This document shows, piece by piece, positions 28,508 to 39,942 of a stretch of 64,000 bases of DNA (position 1 is the first letter of the stretch; the number at the start of each line of letters is the position of its first letter). The notes beneath the pieces were generated by a model, which saw nothing but the letters and a program-made list of their open reading frames with translations, did no database searches and was not told the origin of the DNA. The translations under genes and the position numbers were made by a program. The stretch is taken from the NCBI RefSeq assembly GCF_026586665.1, contig NZ_JAODIY010000004.1, positions 118,120 through 182,119 on the forward strand, in the 5' to 3' direction. This DNA comes from Halovenus rubra (GTDB lineage: Archaea; Halobacteriota; Halobacteria; Halobacteriales; Haloarculaceae).

Positions 28508-30283
28508 TCATGTTAAGACAAGCGGGCCAAAGAGAAGCACGCCAAGCGACACTACCATCGATAGTGTCATGCCAACGGTTATGAGCGTGACAATTGTCCG
28601 CCCATGAGCTGTGGGCAGCCGTGAGACGACAGACTCAGCTGCCGCTCTAAAGATGTGCCCACCATCAAGTGGGAACGATGGGATACAGTTGAAGATAGCG
28701 AGGTTGAAGTTCAGCCACCACGTCCAAAAGAGAAGGTTGATGCCGATAAGTGTCCCACTCCCGAGAACTGAAAACGGGCCACTGACGGTGAAAAAGCCGG
28801 CCACGCCGGGAGTGAACCCGGCGAAGTTGTAGGAGACTCCCTCCATGATGAGCGTCGCGAAAGGCAACATGAGCAACTGGAGGTGGTACCAGAGGAACCC
28901 AGTGACAGTCGACATCTCATCCGGAATTGCATTGCCTCCAAGCATCGACAAGAAGTTCTCGGCAGGGTAGGGGTCGATACCGAAGTCGTTGAGCAATAGT
29001 GCGCTGTACCCCTCTGCCGCTCGAACATCAATCTGCGGGTCGTCGGCCGAGCCACCAACTGTTACGTTGTACGTGTTCTTCTCACCGCTGACAAAGGCTG
29101 TTATCGGTACCTCCTGTCCGGGTTCAAGTCCGTCAATTTGCTCACCGAAGGCCGACGTATTCGAGACGCGGACGCCACTGACATGTGTAATCAAAAGCTC
29201 CCTATCTTCGGGAGCGCCGGCATCGGCAAACTGCCCGTCAGGGTCGACGTGGAAGATATACGCACCTATCGGTAGAGTCGCCTCTCCTCTGTTGGTTTGG
29301 ATGGTCGCAACTGTCCTGTTTTCGACGGCCGCGGCGAACTCACCTTCTGTCTGGACGGCTGTCCCGTTGACCGACGCGATTTTCGGTGGCTCTTTTTCGC
29401 TCAACTGAATACCCGGAACAAGCTCTTGGACGCCACCGGTAACAAGTAACTCCCGTTCGACGGTGACATCTTCACCATCCTCGCGTGAGACCATCACTTG
29501 CCCGTCGTCGTTGCGTTCGAGATAATCCTCGAACTGTGATACGTTCTCGACCGGTGTTCCATCGATATGCGTGATAACATCCCCGCGTTCGATACCTGTG
29601 TCGGCAGCACCTGACCCCGCGAACGTATCCCCGACCGGTGCGCCCGGTACGACAGAGACAAAGCTAGCGAGGGCAACAATCCCAACCAGTGCAACGATTG
29701 TCACCGCAAAGTTGTTCGTGATGCCAGCCGCAAACATCCGGGCCCGTGCCCCCCGGTCGGCTTCGCGCTGGTCATCAATATCAGGCTCGACAAACGCCCC
29801 AAGCGGGACAAGTGAGAAAAACGCCACTCCCATCGAGTCGATATCAATCCCCTCGACTCGACAGAGGAGTCCGTGGCCACCCTCGTGAACGATTAACCCG
29901 ACCAGCAGGCCGAAAACAATTCCGGGGGCAGCCGATAACGGAAGGAAATCGTTGACGCCCGGAATGACCAGCGCATTCTGTGGACTTTCTATTGTCGCGC
30001 TGTCGGGTTGTGAAAAGACTGCCGGCACCGAGAGGAGGACAAAGATCCCTGCAAGGACCATCACGACCAACGCGATTCCAACACCGAGATTCCCCCACGC
30101 GCGCCAGAATCGCTTGCGGCTGGCCACTCGGTCCAGAAACTGCCGCCCGCGTTTTGTCTTGATTGTCAACAGTGGGCCGGTGACACTGAAATACTCCGGT
30201 AGATAACCATAGGTCCGCAACGCCATTGCGAGCACCGAATAAATGACAACGCCCGCGATAGCGCCGATCAGCAAATCAACCAT
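28508..30283 (-). CDS. Site-2 protease-like M50 metalloprotease with PDZ domains
   Basis: 591 residues from the ATG at 30283 (a GTG lies one codon upstream). Membrane helices flank HEGGH at 133-137, the zinc-binding motif. The central extracellular part has a PDZ-like module (GAADTGIERGDVITHIDGTPVENVSQFEDYL) and a second divergent PDZ-like module (about 290-420). The second zinc ligand is in FPLDGGHIF near the C-terminus. It should cleave membrane-bound regulators or clear signal remnants; the target is unknown. It lies 67 bp upstream of pitA on the same strand; a shared transcript is possible. Confidence 0.92.
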   Translation of the reverse strand: MVDLLIGAIAGVVIYSVLAMALRTYGYLPEYFSVTGPLLTIKTKRGRQFLDRVASRKRFWRAWGNLGVGIALVVMVLAGIFVLLSVPAVFSQPDSATIESPQNALVIPGVNDFLPLSAAPGIVFGLLVGLIVHEGGHGLLCRVEGIDIDSMGVAFFSLVPLGAFVEPDIDDQREADRGARARMFAAGITNNFAVTIVALVGIVALASFVSVVPGAPVGDTFAGSGAADTGIERGDVITHIDGTPVENVSQFEDYLERNDDGQVMVSREDGEDVTVERELLVTGGVQELVPGIQLSEKEPPKIASVNGTAVQTEGEFAAAVENRTVATIQTNRGEATLPIGAYIFHVDPDGQFADAGAPEDRELLITHVSGVRVSNTSAFGEQIDGLEPGQEVPITAFVSGEKNTYNVTVGGSADDPQIDVRAAEGYSALLLNDFGIDPYPAENFLSMLGGNAIPDEMSTVTGFLWYHLQLLMLPFATLIMEGVSYNFAGFTPGVAGFFTVSGPFSVLGSGTLIGINLLFWTWWLNFNLAIFNCIPSFPLDGGHIFRAAAESVVSRLPTAHGRTIVTLITVGMTLSMVVSLGVLLFGPLVLT

Positions 30284-30395
30284 CACCTACACAGTAGGGG
30301 TGTCCCGAAAAGAGGGTTTGGATACCTGAGTATCCGTCCGGCTCTGTCACGGAGGTTCGGGTAAACATAACTATCTTCCTTCCGTTAAATACAAT

Positions 30396-30818: not shown

Positions 30819-31955
30819 TTAGAGCCTGCGCTTGATTCGTAGCACAAGCGGCACACCACGGTCGGCCTGCCGGACACGCCGCCTGCGCAGCCCGAGCAAC
30901 CCGACCACCAGCGTTGTGATACTGACGATGATTGTTACGTTGATCGCGCCAAGCGCAACCATGGGGTGGATATCGTGCAACGCCATGAGAAACGACGGCG
31001 GCAAAATCATGACGTATCTGTTTTCGTCGATACTCACCGTTCGTTGTTCATCTGGTGGCGGTGCAGGGACGTACATCGTCGTCGACACCGTATCGCCGCC
31101 CGGAAGGCCAAGCTGCCTGTCCTGTAGTGTTGTATCTGGTGCAGATTCGAAGGCGACAAGCATCGTTACAAGCCCCTCGTTTGTCGCAGAGAGACTCACA
31201 TCGACAGGCTCTCCAGGTGTTGCCTCGTCCTGAAATGCGGCACCCTCAACTGGGACTTGGTGGGTACTGCTTGGGAGGACCATCGCGGCGTTTGCCGGAA
31301 GTGCGACAACTGCGACTAGTACGATAACTGCGTACCGTGGGTCAAGCCACTCGCTTTCGCCTTGTTTTCGACTCCGAGTTCGGTCTGACCCGCGGATGCT
31401 ATCGCCAACTGTTATGCCGAGCAATACGAGGCCAGCGAGAAGGAGAACTGACCCCATCTGGCCAGCGGTATCGGCACCCTCTAACCCGAGTACGGTCGTT
31501 ACGGTCTCTTGGACCTCGAATATGAGGGACCGACCGCCAAGCACCACCGTTCCAAGTGAGGGGAGTGTCACGACGTTTCCGCCTGGTTGCCAAGCGGTTG
31601 CAACAATCTGGTCGTCGGTTACCGGTGGTTCGACACCATCTTGGTCAGTAAATGGATTGCCATCTCCTTTCGTAATGTACCCATCTTCGGTTTCATCGAC
31701 AACCCGATGTGTGGTGAGCTTACCGCCTTCGATTTCTTCGGCTTCGAAGACGACCACATCTCCTTTCTCAATATCACCTGTGACAACATCTGGGACTGCG
31801 ATGAACCCGTCTCCGGTCTGAATCGTCGGTGACATGCTATCGGACGTAACGAAGCTCAAGACCGCAGGCTGCCCGATGATGGCCCCACCGGCAGTTGCGA
31901 GAATTAGCAGGACAACGATGATTTTCGCGACGCTTCTAATCCGTCTTCGAAACAT
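30819..31955 (-). CDS. Type I signal peptidase with extended C-terminal membrane domain
   Basis: 378 residues, much longer than a minimal archaeal signal peptidase. The catalytic set is S40 (FVTSDSMSPTIQ), H83 (LTTHRVV, the His that replaces Lys in archaeal/ER-type enzymes) and D98 (YITKGDGNPFTD). The N-terminal anchor is residues 9-30. After about residue 150, three further helices (160-185, 205-225, 330-352) flank an extracellular beta-rich segment (about 235-325). The lone enzyme lies next to three proteins with SipW-like signal peptides, so it is a good candidate for the dedicated peptidase of this locus. It is the last gene of a unit (DUF1102, anchor, peptidase), separated from its upstream neighbour by 129 bp that hold a TnpB relic. 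Confidence 0.9.
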   Translation of the reverse strand: MFRRRIRSVAKIIVVLLILATAGGAIIGQPAVLSFVTSDSMSPTIQTGDGFIAVPDVVTGDIEKGDVVVFEAEEIEGGKLTTHRVVDETEDGYITKGDGNPFTDQDGVEPPVTDDQIVATAWQPGGNVVTLPSLGTVVLGGRSLIFEVQETVTTVLGLEGADTAGQMGSVLLLAGLVLLGITVGDSIRGSDRTRSRKQGESEWLDPRYAVIVLVAVVALPANAAMVLPSSTHQVPVEGAAFQDEATPGEPVDVSLSATNEGLVTMLVAFESAPDTTLQDRQLGLPGGDTVSTTMYVPAPPPDEQRTVSIDENRYVMILPPSFLMALHDIHPMVALGAINVTIIVSITTLVVGLLGLRRRRVRQADRGVPLVLRIKRRL

Positions 31956-32027
31956 GCCAGTATCGCGGTACCACCTGTTTGTTTACTGGCGTAAATAGCT
32001 GTTTCGTCCTCTCTGTCCCCTTCGATG

Positions 32028-32088
32028 TGTCATAAAAGCAGGAACCCCAACCTCAGCGCGTTCGCGCGAGCAAGTTGAGGTCATTTAG
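32028..32088 (+). mobile_element. Relic of an IS200/IS605-type (TnpB) right end with hairpin
   Basis: In one frame (32035-32088) the sequence reads KAGTPTSARSREQVEVI followed by TAG, much like the C-terminal tail of haloarchaeal TnpB (IS1341-type) proteins that often ends in 'AGTPT/AGSPT' plus a few residues. The same stretch forms a hairpin: ACCTCA (32050-32055) pairs with TGAGGT (32076-32081), and inside it GCGCG pairs with CGCGC (32056-32067). This hairpin is the type found in the right end and guide-RNA scaffold of such elements. No transposase body is present, so the element is a remnant. Its 3' bases overlap the end of the convergent anchor gene (32085). Confidence 0.5.
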
Positions 32089-33284
32089 GCGTTCTCGGTT
32101 TCGTCTTCGTGAGTGGCTTCGATGTACTCACCCTCAATATCCGGGAGGCGGCGGTAGCCAAGCATACCCCCAAGGATTGCTGACCCACCCAGCACGGTCA
32201 GGAACAGTGCCATCCCACGGATGCCAGCCGACCAGAGGCCACCCATCGCCACCAGCGAGAGTACCAGCACATTCAGCCAGAGCAGGCCTAGACGGACCAA
32301 TGCGTATCTGACTCGTGGTCGCCGTGTCTGAGCTGGTGTTTTCAGTAGCGGCCTGACATCCCGAACCCGCGTCTGAGTCAGGTAATTGGTCAGGACCGCG
32401 ATGATCGCGATAAACGGAAGCCACACATACCAAGGGAAGATGAAGCTGCCGAAGTCAAACGGTAGGGCCCCAAGCAGCGGAACTGCTGTTGGCTCCTCAC
32501 CGGGAACGAACTCATCGGTATCTTGTGACCCGTTGTCTGGTGTCGTATCCGTTCCGGGGTCGGTATCCGGGTCAGGTGTCGCTGTGGGGTCGGTATCCGG
32601 GTCAGGTGTCGCTGTGGGGTCGGTATCCGGGTCAGGCGTCGCTGTGGGGTCGGTATCCGGGTCAGGTGTTGGTGTGGTCTCAGTCTCATCATCCGGTGTT
32701 TGAGTCGGGGTCGAATCCGGATCTGTCGGCGTATCAGTTTCCTGCTCTGATACGTCCGGTGGTCCCTGTCCTGGTGATTCAGTCTCGGTCTCCGATTCGT
32801 CCTCAGGGAGACGCTGCCTGTAGGTTACTGTCTCGACAAAGGTGCCAGACGTATCTGAGTCGGCCTCAACAACGAAGCCGAGCGCGACGTGTTCGTCAGG
32901 TTCGAGCCTAATAGCGTTGTCCTCGCCTTCGACCGGTTGCTTGGTGTCCATCCGCAGGAGGGTCAACTCGTCGGTACCACTCTGTTCGAGCCAGACTTCT
33001 GCAGTTTCAACACTGTCTTGAGTATCCTCCAATCCCACCACAAACACGTCGTCTATCCACATCTTGGTCCCCGCAAAGACATCAATCTCAACAGACAGGT
33101 TTCCTTGGCTGTTTAGCTCCGCGTACTCGTTACCGTTCTCTGTGTCGGCTGGGCTCAGAAAGACACCAGAGTCGTTTGTCGGGTCAAGCCTGTCGCGTTG
33201 CCCATCCATCGGAACAGCACCCGTCGCTATGACAGTGCCGCAGGCGATTAAGACGAGTGCCGTGGTGAGGAGTAACCGATTCAT
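32085..33284 (-). CDS. Membrane-anchored protein with DUF1102-like domain and TPDPDTDP repeats
   Basis: 399 residues. A signal/anchor segment (1-24) is followed by a domain (about 28-165) with GVFLSPADTENGNEYAEL and NLSVEIDVFAG, closely resembling the core of DUF1102/SipW-type secreted proteins. A low-complexity Thr/Pro/Asp linker (about 170-265) contains four near-perfect TPDPDTDPTA repeats. The C-terminal part has a first helix (about 278-297) and two more (about 325-365), then a short acidic tail. It looks like a cell-surface anchor for the adjacent secreted subunits, with a linker that may span the S-layer and could be O-glycosylated. That role is inference. It is 51 bp after the DUF1102 gene. 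Confidence 0.78.
   Translation of the reverse strand: MNRLLLTTALVLIACGTVIATGAVPMDGQRDRLDPTNDSGVFLSPADTENGNEYAELNSQGNLSVEIDVFAGTKMWIDDVFVVGLEDTQDSVETAEVWLEQSGTDELTLLRMDTKQPVEGEDNAIRLEPDEHVALGFVVEADSDTSGTFVETVTYRQRLPEDESETETESPGQGPPDVSEQETDTPTDPDSTPTQTPDDETETTPTPDPDTDPTATPDPDTDPTATPDPDTDPTATPDPDTDPGTDTTPDNGSQDTDEFVPGEEPTAVPLLGALPFDFGSFIFPWYVWLPFIAIIAVLTNYLTQTRVRDVRPLLKTPAQTRRPRVRYALVRLGLLWLNVLVLSLVAMGGLWSAGIRGMALFLTVLGGSAILGGMLGYRRLPDIEGEYIEATHEDETENA
32551..32670 (-). repeat. Tandem 30-bp repeat encoding TPDPDTDPTA
   Basis: Four copies of a 30-bp unit (gtcggtatccgggtcaggtgt and flanks), the first and last slightly diverged. The repeats are in frame within the anchor protein and encode a Thr/Pro/Asp-rich linker. 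Near-identity at the DNA level suggests recent expansion by slippage and possible length variation between strains. Confidence 0.9.
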
Positions 33285-33296
33285 CTGAAAAGTAGA

Positions 33297-33315
33297 CAGC
33301 GAGTGACGGTCGCTG
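33297..33315 (-). terminator. Small hairpin between DUF1102 gene and anchor gene
   Basis: CAGCGA (33297-33302) and TCGCTG (33310-33315) form a 6-bp stem with a 7-nt loop in the 51-bp gap between two co-oriented genes. It could be a weak terminator or mRNA processing site that lowers expression of the downstream anchor and peptidase relative to the presumed major subunit. It has no long T-run after it. Confidence 0.3.
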
Positions 33316-33335
33316 CCTAGAGAACTGTGTCAGGC

Positions 33336-33890
33336 CTAGCTGTGGTCTCCTTTACGCGCAGCGAAGACAATACTGCTGATGGTGTCGATAGCTGCTCCTG
33401 TATTGTTCTGTAGGTCAATCACGACTGTGAGCTTGATATTACTGCCCGAGGATAGGTCAACAGCGTTATCGCCCTCTGTTGAACTATCGACGATTGAGGT
33501 GCCGCTACTATCTTGGATATCCAAGACATCCCCGATAAGATTGTTTGTGTCGTCGCTTGCGTCTGGGTTTACTGAGATACCAACGTCTTTACTTCCATCA
33601 TTTGTTACCTTGAGTGCATCCGCAAACGTCGTCGTTGCCCGCTCGTTGAGGTCCGCTTGCTTGATTTTAATTACTGAAGTTCCAGACTCATTTTCCGTTG
33701 TGATGATGTTGTTATTTGAGCTTGGATTATTCGGTTCGAACTTCAGAATCGCACTGGAGTCGTCGCTCGTGTTTATCTCGACTGAACGTGTCGCCTCGAC
33801 TGAAGTAAACGCACCCGAACTAAACAGGCCACCAATACCGACGCTAGCCGTCCCAAGTCCGAGCAGTATAGATCGTCTATTAATTTCCAT
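33336..33890 (-). CDS. SipW-type/DUF1102 secreted protein (presumed filament subunit)
   Basis: The start is the ATG at 33890 (MEINRRSILLGLG), supported by a TATA-like box at 33915-33923; 184 residues. The signal region has a twin arginine, a hydrophobic core and the sequence FSSGAFTSVEA, followed by RSVEIN. GAFTSVEA is shared exactly with the divergent gene at 34067. The mature part is rich in Asn, Ser, Thr and Asp and in alternating beta-strand pattern, with conserved DUF1102 features (FADALKVTNDGSKDVGISVNPD). TasA, camelysin and archaeal bundling-pilus proteins share this architecture and polymerise by donor-strand exchange; I infer a similar role. Confidence 0.82.
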   Translation of the reverse strand: MEINRRSILLGLGTASVGIGGLFSSGAFTSVEATRSVEINTSDDSSAILKFEPNNPSSNNNIITTENESGTSVIKIKQADLNERATTTFADALKVTNDGSKDVGISVNPDASDDTNNLIGDVLDIQDSSGTSIVDSSTEGDNAVDLSSGSNIKLTVVIDLQNNTGAAIDTISSIVFAARKGDHS

Positions 33891-33914
33891 AGTTCGTGCT
33901 TGCATGTGTTGATG

Positions 33915-33923
33915 CACTATACT
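33915..33923 (-). promoter_or_regulatory. TATA-like box for the DUF1102 gene at 33890
   Basis: Minus-strand AGTATAGTG lies 25-33 nt before the ATG at 33890. It supports this start over the longer in-frame extension (from 33917) and a leaderless transcript. On the other side, AATAATATACC (34007-34015, plus strand) may serve the divergent gene, giving it a leader of roughly 29 nt. Confidence 0.55.
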
Positions 33924-34066
33924 CTCTTAGTAATTGGCAGCAATATAGTGGTTAATGCCGTCCATTATCGTCTCAAGCACCGATTTAGCTCCGATAAAGC
34001 GGCCTAATAATATACCAATGGGGGTCTTTGAGATGAGCAAGGCACGCTTCAGGTGCTAGATCTCTA

Positions 34067-34672
34067 ATGAAAATGAATCGCAGAAACGTACTGACAGGAT
34101 TGGGCGGATTGGCAATTGGTGGCGGCGCACTTGTCGGCTCAGGTGCATTTACTTCCGTCGAGGCAGAGCGCGACGTAGAAGTGAATGTTCTCGTCGAGAA
34201 CGAGATTGGTGACTCCGAGGAAGTGGCTGACGTGCTCGTCAACGTCGGCGGCTACGAGACGGTCGCAGCTGACGACGGAACTACTACTAGTACGGACGGC
34301 ACTGACTTCTTCCCAAGTAGTGGCACTAGCACCTACAGCAGTCCGAGTTACGGAGAAGACTACGTCAGCCTCATCGATAACGATGTGACTCTCGTGTTCG
34401 GACACAGCGGTAGCGAACTCGTTCCTAACGCAACCACCTCATACGATAATCTCTTTGCGCTGGTCAACAGCGCCGGTAGCCAGACAACGGGATCGCACTC
34501 ACTTTCGTTTGGCAACGGTGGCTTCACCGAACCAAATACTGGCGTCAGCTTCCAGAGCCCACCCAGTGGGGTACAGATCGGCGCTACAAGTGCACAGGAG
34601 TTCGATGTGGACGTGACGGCTGATGGCGCAGACGATACCTCCACCGGTGAACTCGTGATCACGATCCAGTAG
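34067..34672 (+). CDS. SipW-type/DUF1102 secreted protein, second copy
   Basis: 201 residues from the ATG at 34067 (a second in-frame ATG is at 34073). The N-terminus MKMNRRNVLTGLGGLAIGGGALVGSGAFTSVEA is a Tat-like/SipW-like signal, followed by ERDVEVNVLVEN, the probable N-terminal strand of the mature protein. The rest is beta-rich with Gly/Ser/Thr runs (TTTSTDGTDFFPSSGTSTYSSPSYG) and a C-terminal STGELVITIQ strand. It is transcribed divergently from the first DUF1102 gene and may be a minor or alternate subunit. The 297 bp downstream, up to the regulator gene, is AT-rich with no gene I can support. Confidence 0.8.
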   Translation: MKMNRRNVLTGLGGLAIGGGALVGSGAFTSVEAERDVEVNVLVENEIGDSEEVADVLVNVGGYETVAADDGTTTSTDGTDFFPSSGTSTYSSPSYGEDYVSLIDNDVTLVFGHSGSELVPNATTSYDNLFALVNSAGSQTTGSHSLSFGNGGFTEPNTGVSFQSPPSGVQIGATSAQEFDVDVTADGADDTSTGELVITIQ

Positions 34673-34938
34673 TAACGAACGCTATTGGAGAGTGCCACTC
34701 AGGGGTGATGAGCCATCAACGACTCTCCGAAAGATAAGAAAGCAGTCAAAAAACTGGCTTGACATGCAGGGGACATTGGGCTGGGACTCTCTGGGCCGCG
34801 TGACACAACCAGTGAGTTACCACATATAAACCCAATGTACAAACGGAGTACAAGCGGCGGTAATCACTCAATAGTAAAACAGGATTATCATTGTCTTATT
34901 TCCAGAGTTTTACATCTTACTAAGACTCACCGATACTG

Positions 34939-34948
34939 TTTAGTATCC
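34939..34948 (+). promoter_or_regulatory. TATA-like box of the winged-helix regulator gene
   Basis: TTTAGTATCC lies 22-31 nt before the ATG at 34970, placing the transcription start at or next to the start codon. This argues that the regulator, the 765-residue protein and the DUF5305 gene form a transcript separate from the DUF1102 gene upstream. Confidence 0.5.
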
Positions 34949-34969
34949 AAATCACTCGATTAGTAACAG

Positions 34970-35536
34970 ATGGCCACCAGCAATTTGAATCATGAAAAAA
35001 AGAATAATTCGGGGCTTACACGAGACGAGGTTTTTGAGTTATTAAGTAACCACCGCCGTAGATACGCATTGCATATTGCAAAACAGACTGATGGATCTCT
35101 AGAACTTTCGGATATTGCTGAGCAGATTGCAGCTTGGGAGAATGGCAAAAGCTTAGCCGAAATCACGTCCGACGAGCGACACCGCGTATACACCTCGATG
35201 CAGCAGACACACCTTCCGACGATGGACCGTGCGGGAGTCATCAACTACGACAACGGAACGGTAACGCTGACCGAGGAAGCGACCAATCTCGACGTGTATT
35301 TGGATGTTGTTCCCGAACAATCGATTCCGTGGGGACAGTATTATTTGGGTCTCTCAGCATTTTCAGCAGCACTACTGGCCTCCGTGCTCATGGGTGTGTT
35401 CCCGGCGAGCGTTCCCAACCTTGCGTGGGGTGGGATTGTCGTTGGGTTGTTTTCGGTCTCAGCTCTGTACCACGTCTGGGAGAGCCAGCGCATGCGTCTC
35501 GGAGCTGCGGAGACGCCACCTGATATCGGGCAATGA
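34970..35536 (+). CDS. Membrane-tethered winged-helix protein (DUF7344-like)
   Basis: 188 residues. The N-terminal domain (about 15-100) reads LTRDEVFELLSNHRRRYALHIAKQTDGSLELSDIAEQIAAWE, a winged helix of the haloarchaeal DUF7344 type, with THLPTMDRAGVINYDNGTVTLTEE as the wing. Two hydrophobic segments follow (about 125-143 and 150-168), so the DNA-binding domain should be held at the membrane. Its stop overlaps the start of the 765-residue gene (ATGA at 35533-35536), indicating translational coupling. It is the obvious candidate for local control of the surface locus; whether it activates or represses is unknown. Confidence 0.83.
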   Translation: MATSNLNHEKKNNSGLTRDEVFELLSNHRRRYALHIAKQTDGSLELSDIAEQIAAWENGKSLAEITSDERHRVYTSMQQTHLPTMDRAGVINYDNGTVTLTEEATNLDVYLDVVPEQSIPWGQYYLGLSAFSAALLASVLMGVFPASVPNLAWGGIVVGLFSVSALYHVWESQRMRLGAAETPPDIGQ

Positions 35537-37830
35537 GCAAGAAGTGGACGCGCCGGAGTGCGTTGGCACTTATCGGGAGTGGTGCCGGCCTGCTCGCAGT
35601 GGGTACCGGCGGGTTTACTGAAACTGACGTTGACCGCACAACCGATGTTGATACGTCGAGTGACGGACCAAACAGCAACGCATTGCTCGGCATCAATCCC
35701 TTTGGAGGCCAGCTTGTCTTCGAAGCCGAAACCAGAGAGCTGGTCGAATTGACGAACAATACTGGTGAACAACTGGACACAGTCTCTGCAACCGTCGAGA
35801 ACAACCCAGCTCTTCCGTTCAACGTCGAAGTCGAAACGACGCCCAACTCGCTAGATCCTGGCAGTTCTGGAACGCTGACTGCCACAATTACCGGCGCAAG
35901 CAGTAGCTGTGAGGAACAGTCTGGCGTTGTTAAACTAGAGATTTTCGCGTCGAGTTCGAACAACTCTGACACCGACATCAAGGCCACTCGTACTATCGAC
36001 ATCTCGCTCGTAAACTGTCTCAACTTCGAAACAGCGAGCACCACAACACCATTGGGATTCATCCCAGACACTGGCAATCAGTTCGCGCTACGTGATGGGT
36101 TCGATTCGAAGTCGACACTCGAATACGGTTGGAATCGTGACCAAACTACAGAATCACGGGATCGCAACACGGTTTCAGCGACTGAGGAAAATACGTTGAA
36201 CCACTTTGTCATTAACAGCCGAATTCCGACAAGCTACGATAGCTCCCAAGATGCGTTCTGGAAGATTGACCTTCCAGCGGGCTGGTACGACGTGCGGATG
36301 CGGTGTCACGACCCGGATTATCTCGACCAAGAGTACTCTTTCGATGTTGATGGCGGAGCCGCTGTCGTCCCGCTTCGTGACCCGGAATTTGCGGACGGGA
36401 GCCGTCCGTCGGGTGAAAATGCTGAGACGTATAACTTCACCGTTGAAGTTGTAGATGGCAAAGATCTGAGTATTATCCCACCGGACGGAACGTACAACCC
36501 GAAGGTTTCGTGGCTCCAGTTCCAGTCTCTTGAAGAGGCGGCTGACCCAGCAACCTTTGATGTCGATATCTTCGCCTACGACAGCCCGGTCGACAAGGGT
36601 GATACTGCTATTGTTGATGTCGAAATCGAAAACACTGGCGACCAGCGCGACATCCAGCCGATAACGCTCGATGTCGCAGGCCAGGGGCAAGTTGATAGCG
36701 AGACAATTGCACTCACGTCCGGCGAAACGACACAGATACAACTCGAATGGGATACAGATAATATCAACCCCGGACCATACGACCTGACGGCTGCAAGCGA
36801 GGACACGAGCGACACTGCGACGACAGACGTAAGCGGCGAGGTGAAATATGAGGACGGGACGGCAAACACCGGCCAACGAGCCCGCTACGAACAGGATGTC
36901 GTCTTCGATATTGTGAACAACCGGGCCAGAGAAATCAAGTTTACTGGTATCCGGGTCGAGAGCACAAACACGTCCGCCGACCGCATAAAGAATACTGATG
37001 TCCAAGGCGACACCAAGGAAGCGTTCATCTGGGTTACCGACGAGTACGACCCTGCTTCCAGAGGTGACCATGACTACGACAACAAGGAGAACAATGGTCC
37101 GCCGTACTTTATCGATGACAACGGCCAGAGTGACCGCCTCGACATGGGGCCAAACGGAAGCACCGAGACACTGGCATCTGGTGATACCGCAACAGTAGAG
37201 CTGACAGCGTTCAGAAGTGGAAACAAGTCTATCACAATGGGTGGCACAGAAGTCAGTGAGATTAAAGTCGGCGACAAAACGGACATCGGCGGCACCACGC
37301 TCGATGTCACGCTCTTTTTCGAGATGCCGGACGGGACCGAACGGAGCAAAACGCTGACAATCGACGGTGTTTCCGGTAATCTGGAATTCATCCGCGACTC
37401 CAAAAAGCTGGCCAACGAGAATGGCTCAAATGACATTCTCGCATTCAACGTCCTGAACAACGACGCGAAAAACCTTGGATCCGGTCCTGCGGTCGAATTC
37501 AGCAGTGTCACCGTCAAAAGCACGAGTACGAACGCTGACCAGTACGACGGCAATCCTGATCTCGGGATTGTCACCGAGGGAACTAGCTATGATTACACAG
37601 ACAATGGCAGCGATGGATTCTCAATTAGCCAGACGGTCGATCTGTCCGGTTCCGGTCTGAGCTTAGCAAGTGGTGAGGACGCACGGTGGAATCTTCGTGG
37701 ATTTGAGGAAGAAGATGGACGCTATGATGACCCCGTTGACCTGAGTGGCGAGGACGTACTGATCGAAATAGAATACGAGGACAGTTCACCACCGGGTGGA
37801 GGAATCCGGTTCAAAATCACGGACCTCTGA
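35533..37830 (+). CDS. Large secreted beta-domain protein with SipW/DUF1102-style signal
   Basis: 765 residues. The signal region MSKKWTRRSALALIGSGAGLLAVGTGGFTETDVDRTTDVD parallels the DUF1102 proteins (twin Arg; G-x-G-x-FT before a charged R-x-x-x-V stretch). The mature part shows several modules: an Ig-like domain (about 50-165) including a CEEQ...C pair, a carbohydrate-binding-like part (about 200-345; AFWKIDLPAGWYDVRMRCHDPD), a CARDB-like domain (about 350-445; KGDTAIVDVEIENTGDQRD), then two similar beta domains with 'VVFDIVNNRAREIKFTGIRVEST' and 'LAFNVLNNDAKNLGSGPAVEFSSVTVKST', apparently a repeat. It has no C-terminal anchor. An adhesin or tip-like component is a reasonable guess. Confidence 0.8.
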   Translation: MSKKWTRRSALALIGSGAGLLAVGTGGFTETDVDRTTDVDTSSDGPNSNALLGINPFGGQLVFEAETRELVELTNNTGEQLDTVSATVENNPALPFNVEVETTPNSLDPGSSGTLTATITGASSSCEEQSGVVKLEIFASSSNNSDTDIKATRTIDISLVNCLNFETASTTTPLGFIPDTGNQFALRDGFDSKSTLEYGWNRDQTTESRDRNTVSATEENTLNHFVINSRIPTSYDSSQDAFWKIDLPAGWYDVRMRCHDPDYLDQEYSFDVDGGAAVVPLRDPEFADGSRPSGENAETYNFTVEVVDGKDLSIIPPDGTYNPKVSWLQFQSLEEAADPATFDVDIFAYDSPVDKGDTAIVDVEIENTGDQRDIQPITLDVAGQGQVDSETIALTSGETTQIQLEWDTDNINPGPYDLTAASEDTSDTATTDVSGEVKYEDGTANTGQRARYEQDVVFDIVNNRAREIKFTGIRVESTNTSADRIKNTDVQGDTKEAFIWVTDEYDPASRGDHDYDNKENNGPPYFIDDNGQSDRLDMGPNGSTETLASGDTATVELTAFRSGNKSITMGGTEVSEIKVGDKTDIGGTTLDVTLFFEMPDGTERSKTLTIDGVSGNLEFIRDSKKLANENGSNDILAFNVLNNDAKNLGSGPAVEFSSVTVKSTSTNADQYDGNPDLGIVTEGTSYDYTDNGSDGFSISQTVDLSGSGLSLASGEDARWNLRGFEEEDGRYDDPVDLSGEDVLIEIEYEDSSPPGGGIRFKITDL

Positions 37831-37862
37831 ACTGAGAGACAGAGACAAACCAGATCCTATAA

Positions 37863-39092
37863 ATGAACGAACCTGATATACCACTTTCTGTCCGCTGGTT
37901 TCTGGAAGACTGGCTCTCTGCTGTCTTACTGGTACTGCTCGTATTCTCACTCCTTGGCGGGTACGTCGCCTACGACGCACACATCAACGGCGCAGACACT
38001 GTCGTCGAGCAACGGACAGAGGGGACATGGACTGTCGAAAGCGGGTTCGACCATGCTGGAACGGTCCAGCGCGAGTCTAACGTCTTTTCGATGGGGACTC
38101 GCCTCGAAAATCGCCCACTCTATTTCACCACCGTTGTACCTACTCTGGAGGCAAACTACACACTCGGCCACGACAACACCGACGGCAGGGAAGCGACCGC
38201 CTCGACAGAACTCTCTCTTGTTATCCGCGCCTTCGAGGAACGCGACGAACAAAAAGTCATCTTCTGGGACACAACGGAGACACTCAAAACCAAAGAAACC
38301 ACAATTGCCGACGGTGACCAACGTTCAGTGGCTGTCCGCGTCAACGTGTCTGCGGTCCTTGAACGTATCCGAGCCGCGGAGAGAGACCTCAAAGCTGCAC
38401 CAGGGGAAACAGAAGCGTTGATTATCGCCGACACAACCTTCGACGGGACCGTTGCGGGTGAGTCGTTTACTGATACCCGTACTGACCGTCTTGTAATCGA
38501 GCCACAAGACGCTCTCTACCGTGTCAGCACGGCTGTCGAAGATCAGAAATCCTACGATGCGACCGGGTCGGTAACCCGAACGGTAGAACCATCTGCCGTA
38601 GCACTCTATGGCGCGCCACTACTGTTTATTATCGGAGTACTTACTATAGTTGGACTCGCCATTGCAAGCTCGCAGGGATGGTTACAAGTCACAGAAGTCG
38701 AGCGAACACGTCACGAATTTGAGAGCGAACGCGACGACTTCGATGAGTGGATTTCGGCGGTCACGATTCCCGACAGCGGCAACCGAACTGTTGTCCCCAG
38801 CGAGACGATGGAGGACCTAGTCGATATTGCAATTGACAGCGACAGACGTGTTCTTGAAGAGGGCGACCGGTACGCGGTCATCGTTGACGACATTATGTAC
38901 ACATACTCAGCACCGACTAGTAGCGACCCGCTTGAAGCGACCGACAGCACCGATAGTACTAGTACACAGGTGCCATCAGGGTCAGCACAGAGAGAAGAGC
39001 AAGCAGGTTCTTCAACTGTTGACTCGGACAACGAGGGCCTCGCCGCGAGTGACCGTGGCGTTTCCTCTGGCTCCGATGAAAACAGTGAGTGA
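37863..39092 (+). CDS. DUF5305 family membrane protein
   Basis: 409 residues. A first helix (about 17-38) leads into an extracellular beta-rich domain (about 45-240) containing TVVPTLEANYTLGHDNT and the NVSAVLERI motif, then a second helix (about 242-265: GAPLLFIIGVLTIVGLAIA) and a cytoplasmic C-terminal domain with EWISAVTIPDSGN and RYAVIVDD, ending in a Ser/Thr/Asp-rich tail. This is the DUF5305 layout, which in haloarchaea tends to accompany DUF1102/signal peptidase genes (from memory). It lies 32 bp after the 765-residue gene and is probably in one transcript with it. A periplasm-side assembly or anchoring role is possible. Confidence 0.85.
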   Translation: MNEPDIPLSVRWFLEDWLSAVLLVLLVFSLLGGYVAYDAHINGADTVVEQRTEGTWTVESGFDHAGTVQRESNVFSMGTRLENRPLYFTTVVPTLEANYTLGHDNTDGREATASTELSLVIRAFEERDEQKVIFWDTTETLKTKETTIADGDQRSVAVRVNVSAVLERIRAAERDLKAAPGETEALIIADTTFDGTVAGESFTDTRTDRLVIEPQDALYRVSTAVEDQKSYDATGSVTRTVEPSAVALYGAPLLFIIGVLTIVGLAIASSQGWLQVTEVERTRHEFESERDDFDEWISAVTIPDSGNRTVVPSETMEDLVDIAIDSDRRVLEEGDRYAVIVDDIMYTYSAPTSSDPLEATDSTDSTSTQVPSGSAQREEQAGSSTVDSDNEGLAASDRGVSSGSDENSE

Positions 39093-39099
39093 CCGCAGC

Positions 39100-39942
39100 T
39101 TACTCAAGGATAACTGCTGTCACGTAGACAACAATAAACGCAAGACAGAATCCGAGAAGATGTGTGTAGAGGTCGAACACAGCACCGTCGCCGGTGAACT
39201 GTTGGTTAAAGCCGAAAAACGGGAACAGTAGTAACACACCCAGACCGAGAAGCCCAACCTCGATACGACCACCACTCCAGCCATCAACAACCTCATCCCA
39301 CTCCGGGATGCCGATATAGCTAAGCAACGTTACCACGTACGCCAATCCAATCCCAACAGAGAGGACCACAATCTCGCCCATCCACGCACGAGACGGCACT
39401 GACAGAACTGTGATAATTGCCATAATAAAAAAGAGGAGTGCTGGCGCATCAGTTTCGTCGACAGTACTCGAAAGGTGGGTACTGGTGTAGCTGACAACTG
39501 CGAAACACAACAGCCCAAACAACGCGGCATTAATTGACGAAAACCCGTACAGTTGGCGGTGGCGGTCGAATGCGAGTTGCATCGCGCTCAAAGCAAACGG
39601 AAAAACAAGCAGAAACGTTAGCAACGCTTTCCTAAACAGCCATCGCCGATGGCTCTGGAGACAGAGGACATACGCTGTCGGTGCGACGACGACGTAGCTA
39701 ACAAGGTTTCCGACTAGATGACTCTCGGTCAGGTGAATATAGTGTGAGGTGTACGCCGTCACGACTCTAGGACTGGCGATACGGAACACGAGTTCCTCGC
39801 GCACCGCAATGGGGACACTGAATACGGCAAGTAACGCAACCGGCCCAACACACAACAAGAGCAAATCAACCACATACCAGAAACGCACCGAATCACTGTC
39901 ACGTGGTGTCTTGCCGACTGTTCTCTGACTGGATTCGGCCAC
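39100..39942 (-). CDS. Rhomboid-family intramembrane protease (predicted)
   Basis: 280 residues with about seven membrane segments. The rhomboid features are H75-x3-N79 (ESHLVGNLVSY) in an early helix, G133-F-S135-S136 (YGFSSINAALFGLL), with the catalytic Ser in GxS where the usual following Gly is Ser, and H261 in a late helix followed by LLGFCLAF, matching the H-x2-G pattern. All dyad and oxyanion residues are therefore present, so the protein is likely active, though distant from classical members. The gene is convergent with DUF5305 (7 bp between stops) at the edge of the surface-protein locus; a processing role there is speculation. Confidence 0.75.
   Translation of the reverse strand: MAESSQRTVGKTPRDSDSVRFWYVVDLLLLCVGPVALLAVFSVPIAVREELVFRIASPRVVTAYTSHYIHLTESHLVGNLVSYVVVAPTAYVLCLQSHRRWLFRKALLTFLLVFPFALSAMQLAFDRHRQLYGFSSINAALFGLLCFAVVSYTSTHLSSTVDETDAPALLFFIMAIITVLSVPSRAWMGEIVVLSVGIGLAYVVTLLSYIGIPEWDEVVDGWSGGRIEVGLLGLGVLLLFPFFGFNQQFTGDGAVFDLYTHLLGFCLAFIVVYVTAVILE

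Follow-up and report, generated by a model that had tools for sequence, protein, structure and literature searches.

A probable Tat-fimbriae cluster of Halovenus rubra with an apparently exchanged TafC head and a neighbouring rhomboid protease gene

Gene content of the locus

The stretch analysed (the window) comprises 64,000 nt of Halovenus rubra (GCF_026586665.1, contig NZ_JAODIY010000004.1, 118,120 to 182,119), and coordinates are positions within it. Seven ORFs were confirmed at 30819-39092, all of them as listed in the original prediction (peptidase, anchor, secreted proteins, regulator and DUF5305 protein). Together with an adjoining eighth gene the features are:

30819-31955, minus strand: long SipW/Sec11-type signal peptidase, 378 aa, in the TafG position (TIGR02228)
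32085-33284, minus strand: TafF-like anchor, 399 aa (NCBIfam TafF)
33336-33890, minus strand, ORF open from 33917 (193 aa as listed): TafE adapter pilin (NCBIfam TafE; RR signal MEINRRSIL)
34067-34672, plus strand: TafA-like major pilin, 201 aa (NCBIfam TafA; RR signal MKMNRRNVL)
34970-35536, plus strand: DUF7344 winged-helix protein, 188 aa, in the TafB position (PF24035, E 4e-28)
35533-37830, plus strand: long TafC, 765 aa (NCBIfam TafC, residues 1-162 only)
37863-39092, plus strand: DUF5305 membrane protein in the TafD position (PF17231, E 5e-50)
39100-39942, minus strand: rhomboid intramembrane protease, 280 aa, the eighth gene (catalytic residues, fold and linkage)

TafE exceeds its curated NCBIfam cut-off (227 vs 155 bits); TafA and TafF match over the whole of their profiles, below the cut-offs (153 vs 190 bits and 322 vs 420 bits, respectively). 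DUF7344, DUF5305 and peptidase S26 were assigned by Pfam. The seven genes very probably form a complete cluster for tafi, the Tat-dependent haloarchaeal fimbriae whose core component is TafA (Galeva et al. 2025 iScience 28:111793, as cited in PMC12687288), with A-B-C-D on the plus strand and E-F-G divergent on the minus strand. The gene order fits the A-G letter scheme, from which we infer that DUF7344, DUF5305 and the peptidase correspond to B, D and G. The expectation of a locus for a surface fibre, equipped with its anchor, subunits and regulator and with an additional SipW/Sec11-type peptidase, is supported, and the system is one already known, described in 2025. None of the window proteins reaches Pfam DUF1102, the family to which some of them had been assigned, although 14 of 27 relatives do. 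On the minus strand at 28508-30286 the locus is flanked by a gene for a large membrane protein, which contains an HEGGH stretch and by eye resembles a site-2 protease.

Pilins, anchor and accessory proteins

Twin-arginine (RR) signals, not remarked on in the original prediction, were found on TafA, TafC and TafE, and the RR is invariant in 12/12 TafA/TafE sequences and 6/6 TafC sequences; the TafF signal has no RR. With such signals on three subunits, the export route is probably Tat and not Sec. For TafE, translation probably begins from the ATG at 33890, not the GTG at 33917.

In a sequence search the N-terminus of TafA matched the tafi pilin of PDB 9p0a (E 7e-9). For TafE a structural model was predicted (pLDDT 69, with residues 11-31 below 50), and its best fold matches were 9p0a (E 7e-4), 7pnb (E 8e-4) and 7ueg (E 8e-3). 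As far as a model of moderate confidence goes, the TafE subunit fold is related to solved archaeal donor-strand fibres. The proposal of a donor-strand fibre served by a SipW-like peptidase was thus right in kind, the export route apart.

The TafF-like protein consists of a signal, a pilin-like domain, a PTPDPDTD repeat linker and three C-terminal TM segments, at about 281, 329 and 357. The DUF7344 protein has two C-terminal TM segments, is 51-70% identical across nine related loci, and is likely a regulator. The signal peptidase scores 67 bits with TIGR02228, above the cut-off, and Ser40 and His83 are conserved in the alignment. It is not the only signal peptidase of the genome, as a divergent Sec11-like ORF of 312 aa with weak matches lies separately on contig C39.

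The following working model is consistent with these features. TafA as major subunit, TafE as adapter and TafC as a large, probably adhesive subunit would fold in the cytoplasm and leave via Tat, after which the extra membrane peptidase would remove their signals. Each freed N-terminal strand would complete the beta sandwich of the next subunit and so extend the fibre, while the linker and TM segments of TafF would hold the fibre base in the membrane. The DUF5305 protein may aid assembly, and the DUF7344 protein may act as the regulator.

A TafC with an apparently exchanged head

Residues 1-162 of TafC comprise the Tat signal and the standard N-terminal domain, followed by about 600 residues where the LamG lectin head would be. 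LamG_3 (PF13385, best E 2.6e-24) occurs in TafC of five other aligned loci, and no LamG_3 was found in TafC of the window. The replacement is shared with one other genus: a full-length relative was found in one other genome (G151, 67% identity), likewise within a tafi cluster. One segment of the replacement (query residues about 170-270) recurs widely among haloarchaeal proteins. We read this pattern of alignments as an exchange of the TafC head. The exchange probably changes what the fibre binds, the head being probably adhesive, and it suggests that fibre specificity shifts by adhesive-domain swapping.

Conservation of the gene set

The same seven families were found in nine other Haloarculaceae-level relatives, some of whose loci run into the end of a contig or region; this recurrence shows that the set is not a chance assembly. 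Divergent tafE and tafA are seen in every one of the nine, while the positions of DUF5305 and the peptidase vary. The genes also co-occur across haloarchaea, so that the lack of co-occurrence which the original prediction had named as refuting it was not seen. Related loci with Tat pilins, DUF7344, a long peptidase and DUF5305 form a wider group that is common in the class, and DUF5305 is present in 91/117 sampled genomes. Next to one intact tafi cluster there is a damaged second DUF5305 copy with an internal TAG stop (L199 737-1675, genome G143).

The genome of the window carries a second tafi-like cluster about 250 kb away (G000:C34 about 393-414 kb; L144 6942-8761 with L003). Its contents include DUF7344 genes and several RR pilins, together with another long signal peptidase and another DUF5305, and the ORF of its TafF-like protein overlaps a second rhomboid gene by 16 bases. 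Between this rhomboid and the pilins lie two large secreted-looking proteins with a dockerin-like repeat at the end (GDIDQDGDVTSADVS), at L144 9317-12589 and at L144 13689-16877 (into L003 8-2377), the second of which is subtilase-like by eye. The pilins and the signal peptidase of this cluster are separated by a response-regulator/histidine-kinase-like ORF (L003 7938-9365).

The rhomboid protease gene

The seven genes at 30819-39092 are real, but the association does not stop where the original prediction had ended it: it extends to the rhomboid gene at 39100-39942, which begins 8 bases past the DUF5305 gene, in convergent orientation. Among 44 rhomboid sequences H70, H75, S135 and H261 are invariant and N79 is near-invariant, which covers the catalytic Ser in GxS, the His in TM6 and HxxxxHxxxN, and the family motifs H....H..N, GFS and H..G are kept. 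The first 27 Foldseek matches of the predicted model are all E. coli GlpG, with probability 0.97-1.00 and weak E-values of about 0.06-0.2. Pfam Rhomboid matches 14/44 family members. Searched against PDB sequences, the rhomboid profile hit only short stretches of designed repeat proteins and of other chains. Judged by its residues, the gene is a rhomboid protease with a full catalytic set.

At E<=0.1 the rhombosortase model TIGR03902 matches 39/44 family members, below its cut-off of 84 bits, and does not match the rhomboid of the window. Since it also matches 4/10 unlinked rhomboids, we rejected it as proof of a rhombosortase.

A C-terminal tail beside the rhomboid in related loci

In related loci the rhomboid is often immediately preceded by a gene for a TafF-like protein, whose C-terminus consists of E-x-(G/S/A)-G-(F/I/L) followed by a TM segment and arginines. 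This pattern fits 40/2592 ORFs in rhomboid loci, 39 of them no more than 350 bp from the rhomboid. Where a locus lacks the rhomboid, the protein at the equivalent position has a C-terminal TM segment, with the motif in 0/11. We further built a profile from the rhomboid-adjacent proteins, taking E<=1e-5 as a strong match. Strong matches occur in 26/117 genomes, every one with the rhomboid; among DUF5305-bearing genomes they occur in 26/41 with the rhomboid vs 0/50 without it, although it should be noted that the profile stems from rhomboid-adjacent proteins to begin with, and that the sampled genomes are related and the rhomboid/tail tests hence not independent.

Nine strong matches are not adjacent to the rhomboid. 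Six of these are TafF-like proteins from additional pilin clusters, where no rhomboid was seen; a single protease serving several clusters would give this picture. The tail-bearing ectodomains at first fell into one cluster, and into nine when low-complexity filtering and a coverage rule were applied; as the nine partly share a short domain we do not call them unrelated. L112, L128, L129 and L169 also contain large proteins of several domains, 508 to 3295 aa long, that bear a similar tail and adjoin a rhomboid; within these stretches they are not near pilin genes.

Another explanation would be that the tail and the rhomboid are unrelated: archaeosortase would cut the tail, as a variant of PGF-CTERM, and the rhomboid would have another role. 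The tripartite layout is similar and several tail-bearing proteins contain PGF-pre-PGF domains, but only 1/26 tails matches PGF-CTERM TIGR04126, at E 0.99, for which we rejected that identity for the tail, and P-G-F is missing from many of them. That archaeosortase is widespread in haloarchaea was also counted against this explanation, since the strong tails follow the rhomboid, and on the whole we find it unlikely. The tail/rhomboid pair looks instead like an archaeal counterpart of rhombosortase/GlyGly-CTERM, and the likely target of the rhomboid in related loci would be its TafF-like neighbour, cut at E-x-G-G before the last TM segment.

Linkage of the rhomboid to pilus genes

In the 117 genomes a DUF5305 gene lies within 10 kb of 37/46 high-scoring rhomboid copies, mostly at about 2.5 kb, vs 1/44 low-scoring rhomboids, and all 41 genomes with this rhomboid also have DUF5305. 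Around 58 named rhomboid loci we counted the peptidase in 47, DUF5305 in 46, pilins in 44 and DUF7344 in 40, and no further neighbourhood gene family was comparably conserved. In most of these loci the TafF-like gene lies on one side of the rhomboid and the peptidase on the other.

Such linkage speaks against the rhomboid being a passenger neighbour without function in the fibre system, a reading favoured by the convergent rather than co-directional orientation of the copy in the window and by the canonical tafi loci, where the rhomboid is intact in five of ten, decayed in one and missing from four. We regard the passenger reading as quite improbable. The canonical loci do rule out the rhomboid as a core tafi component; it is accessory in canonical tafi, the window included. 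Beside one canonical cluster the rhomboid has decayed to fragments (L197 13272-15075, genome G147).

TafF of the window has no E-x-G-G tail, and no tail match at E<=0.01 was found in the genome; F2 of the second cluster has a C-terminal TM segment, an Arg end and a weak GG. Given this, and a rhomboid intact in only half of the canonical loci, sorting by the rhomboid is supported for the wider group of loci and only suggested for the locus described here. Our proposal, for and against which we see the case as evenly balanced, is a haloarchaeal rhomboid-based C-terminal sorting system that cuts TafF-like anchors at the E-x-G-G/TM/Arg tail, serves one Tat-pilus cluster in a genome or several and anchors or sheds the fibres, with the rhomboid of the window as a member kept beside canonical tafi. 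Here the rhomboid would probably cut a membrane anchor belonging either to this system or to the second cluster.

The source consulted on tafi (PMC12687288) gives no account of how tafi are anchored, processed or regulated. The linkage of the rhomboid and the matching tail on its neighbour in related loci suggest an unrecognised way of anchoring or releasing the fibres, and if the pairing is true, archaea have a C-terminal sorting route besides archaeosortase. Two features go beyond the known description of tafi, the exchanged head of TafC and the linked protease, whose role is likely new. In addition the survey yields a conserved toolkit of rhomboid, long signal peptidase, DUF5305, DUF7344 and Tat pilins, together with named species.

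Comparison with known systems

The locus had been taken for an undescribed analogue of TasA/SipW. Like the TasA/SipW locus of Bacillus subtilis, it has an ER/archaeal-type signal peptidase adjoining short beta-sandwich fibre subunits; it differs in its Tat-type signals and in a fold closer to archaeal fibres. A Sec-exported TasA/SipW-type matrix fibre distinct from tafi is highly improbable: the long SipW/Sec11-type peptidase does adjoin short subunits, the NCBIfam SipW model does match it at 1.2e-10 and related pilins do match DUF1102, but the SipW score of 41 bits is far under the cut-off of 190, the Taf families match instead, the RR signals of TafA, TafE and TafC are invariant, and TasA is absent among the 50 best fold matches listed for TafE, where 9p0a, 7pnb and 7ueg are present. 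The SipW cut-off and the TafE fold together rule out TasA/SipW membership, and with the Taf family matches the 9p0a match places the locus among the Tat-fimbriae clusters.

The archaeal thread of Sulfolobus (7pnb) and the bundling pilus AbpA of Pyrobaculum (7ueg) are the second and third fold matches to TafE, with only 11% identity over the aligned part. The closest fold is that of the tafi pilus of Natrinema sp. J7-2 (PDB 9p0a). With tafi the locus shares the TafA, TafC, TafE and TafF families, the RR signals and the divergent A/E layout common to its relatives. It differs in that the TafC head appears swapped and the length of TafC doubled, in that TafA and TafF lie under the curated cut-offs, and in the linked rhomboid gene, which we did not find named among the Taf families.

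Outside Proteobacteria GlyGly-CTERM is described as rare. Where a rhombosortase is dedicated to a single target, the two genes are adjacent (Haft 2011, PMC3237569), and our rhomboid/tail argument follows the same logic. The related loci likewise pair a rhomboid with an adjacent protein having a Gly motif, a TM segment and a basic end. Known from sequence, they are instead archaeal and pilus-linked, with an E-x-G-G motif and rhomboids under the TIGR03902 cut-off.
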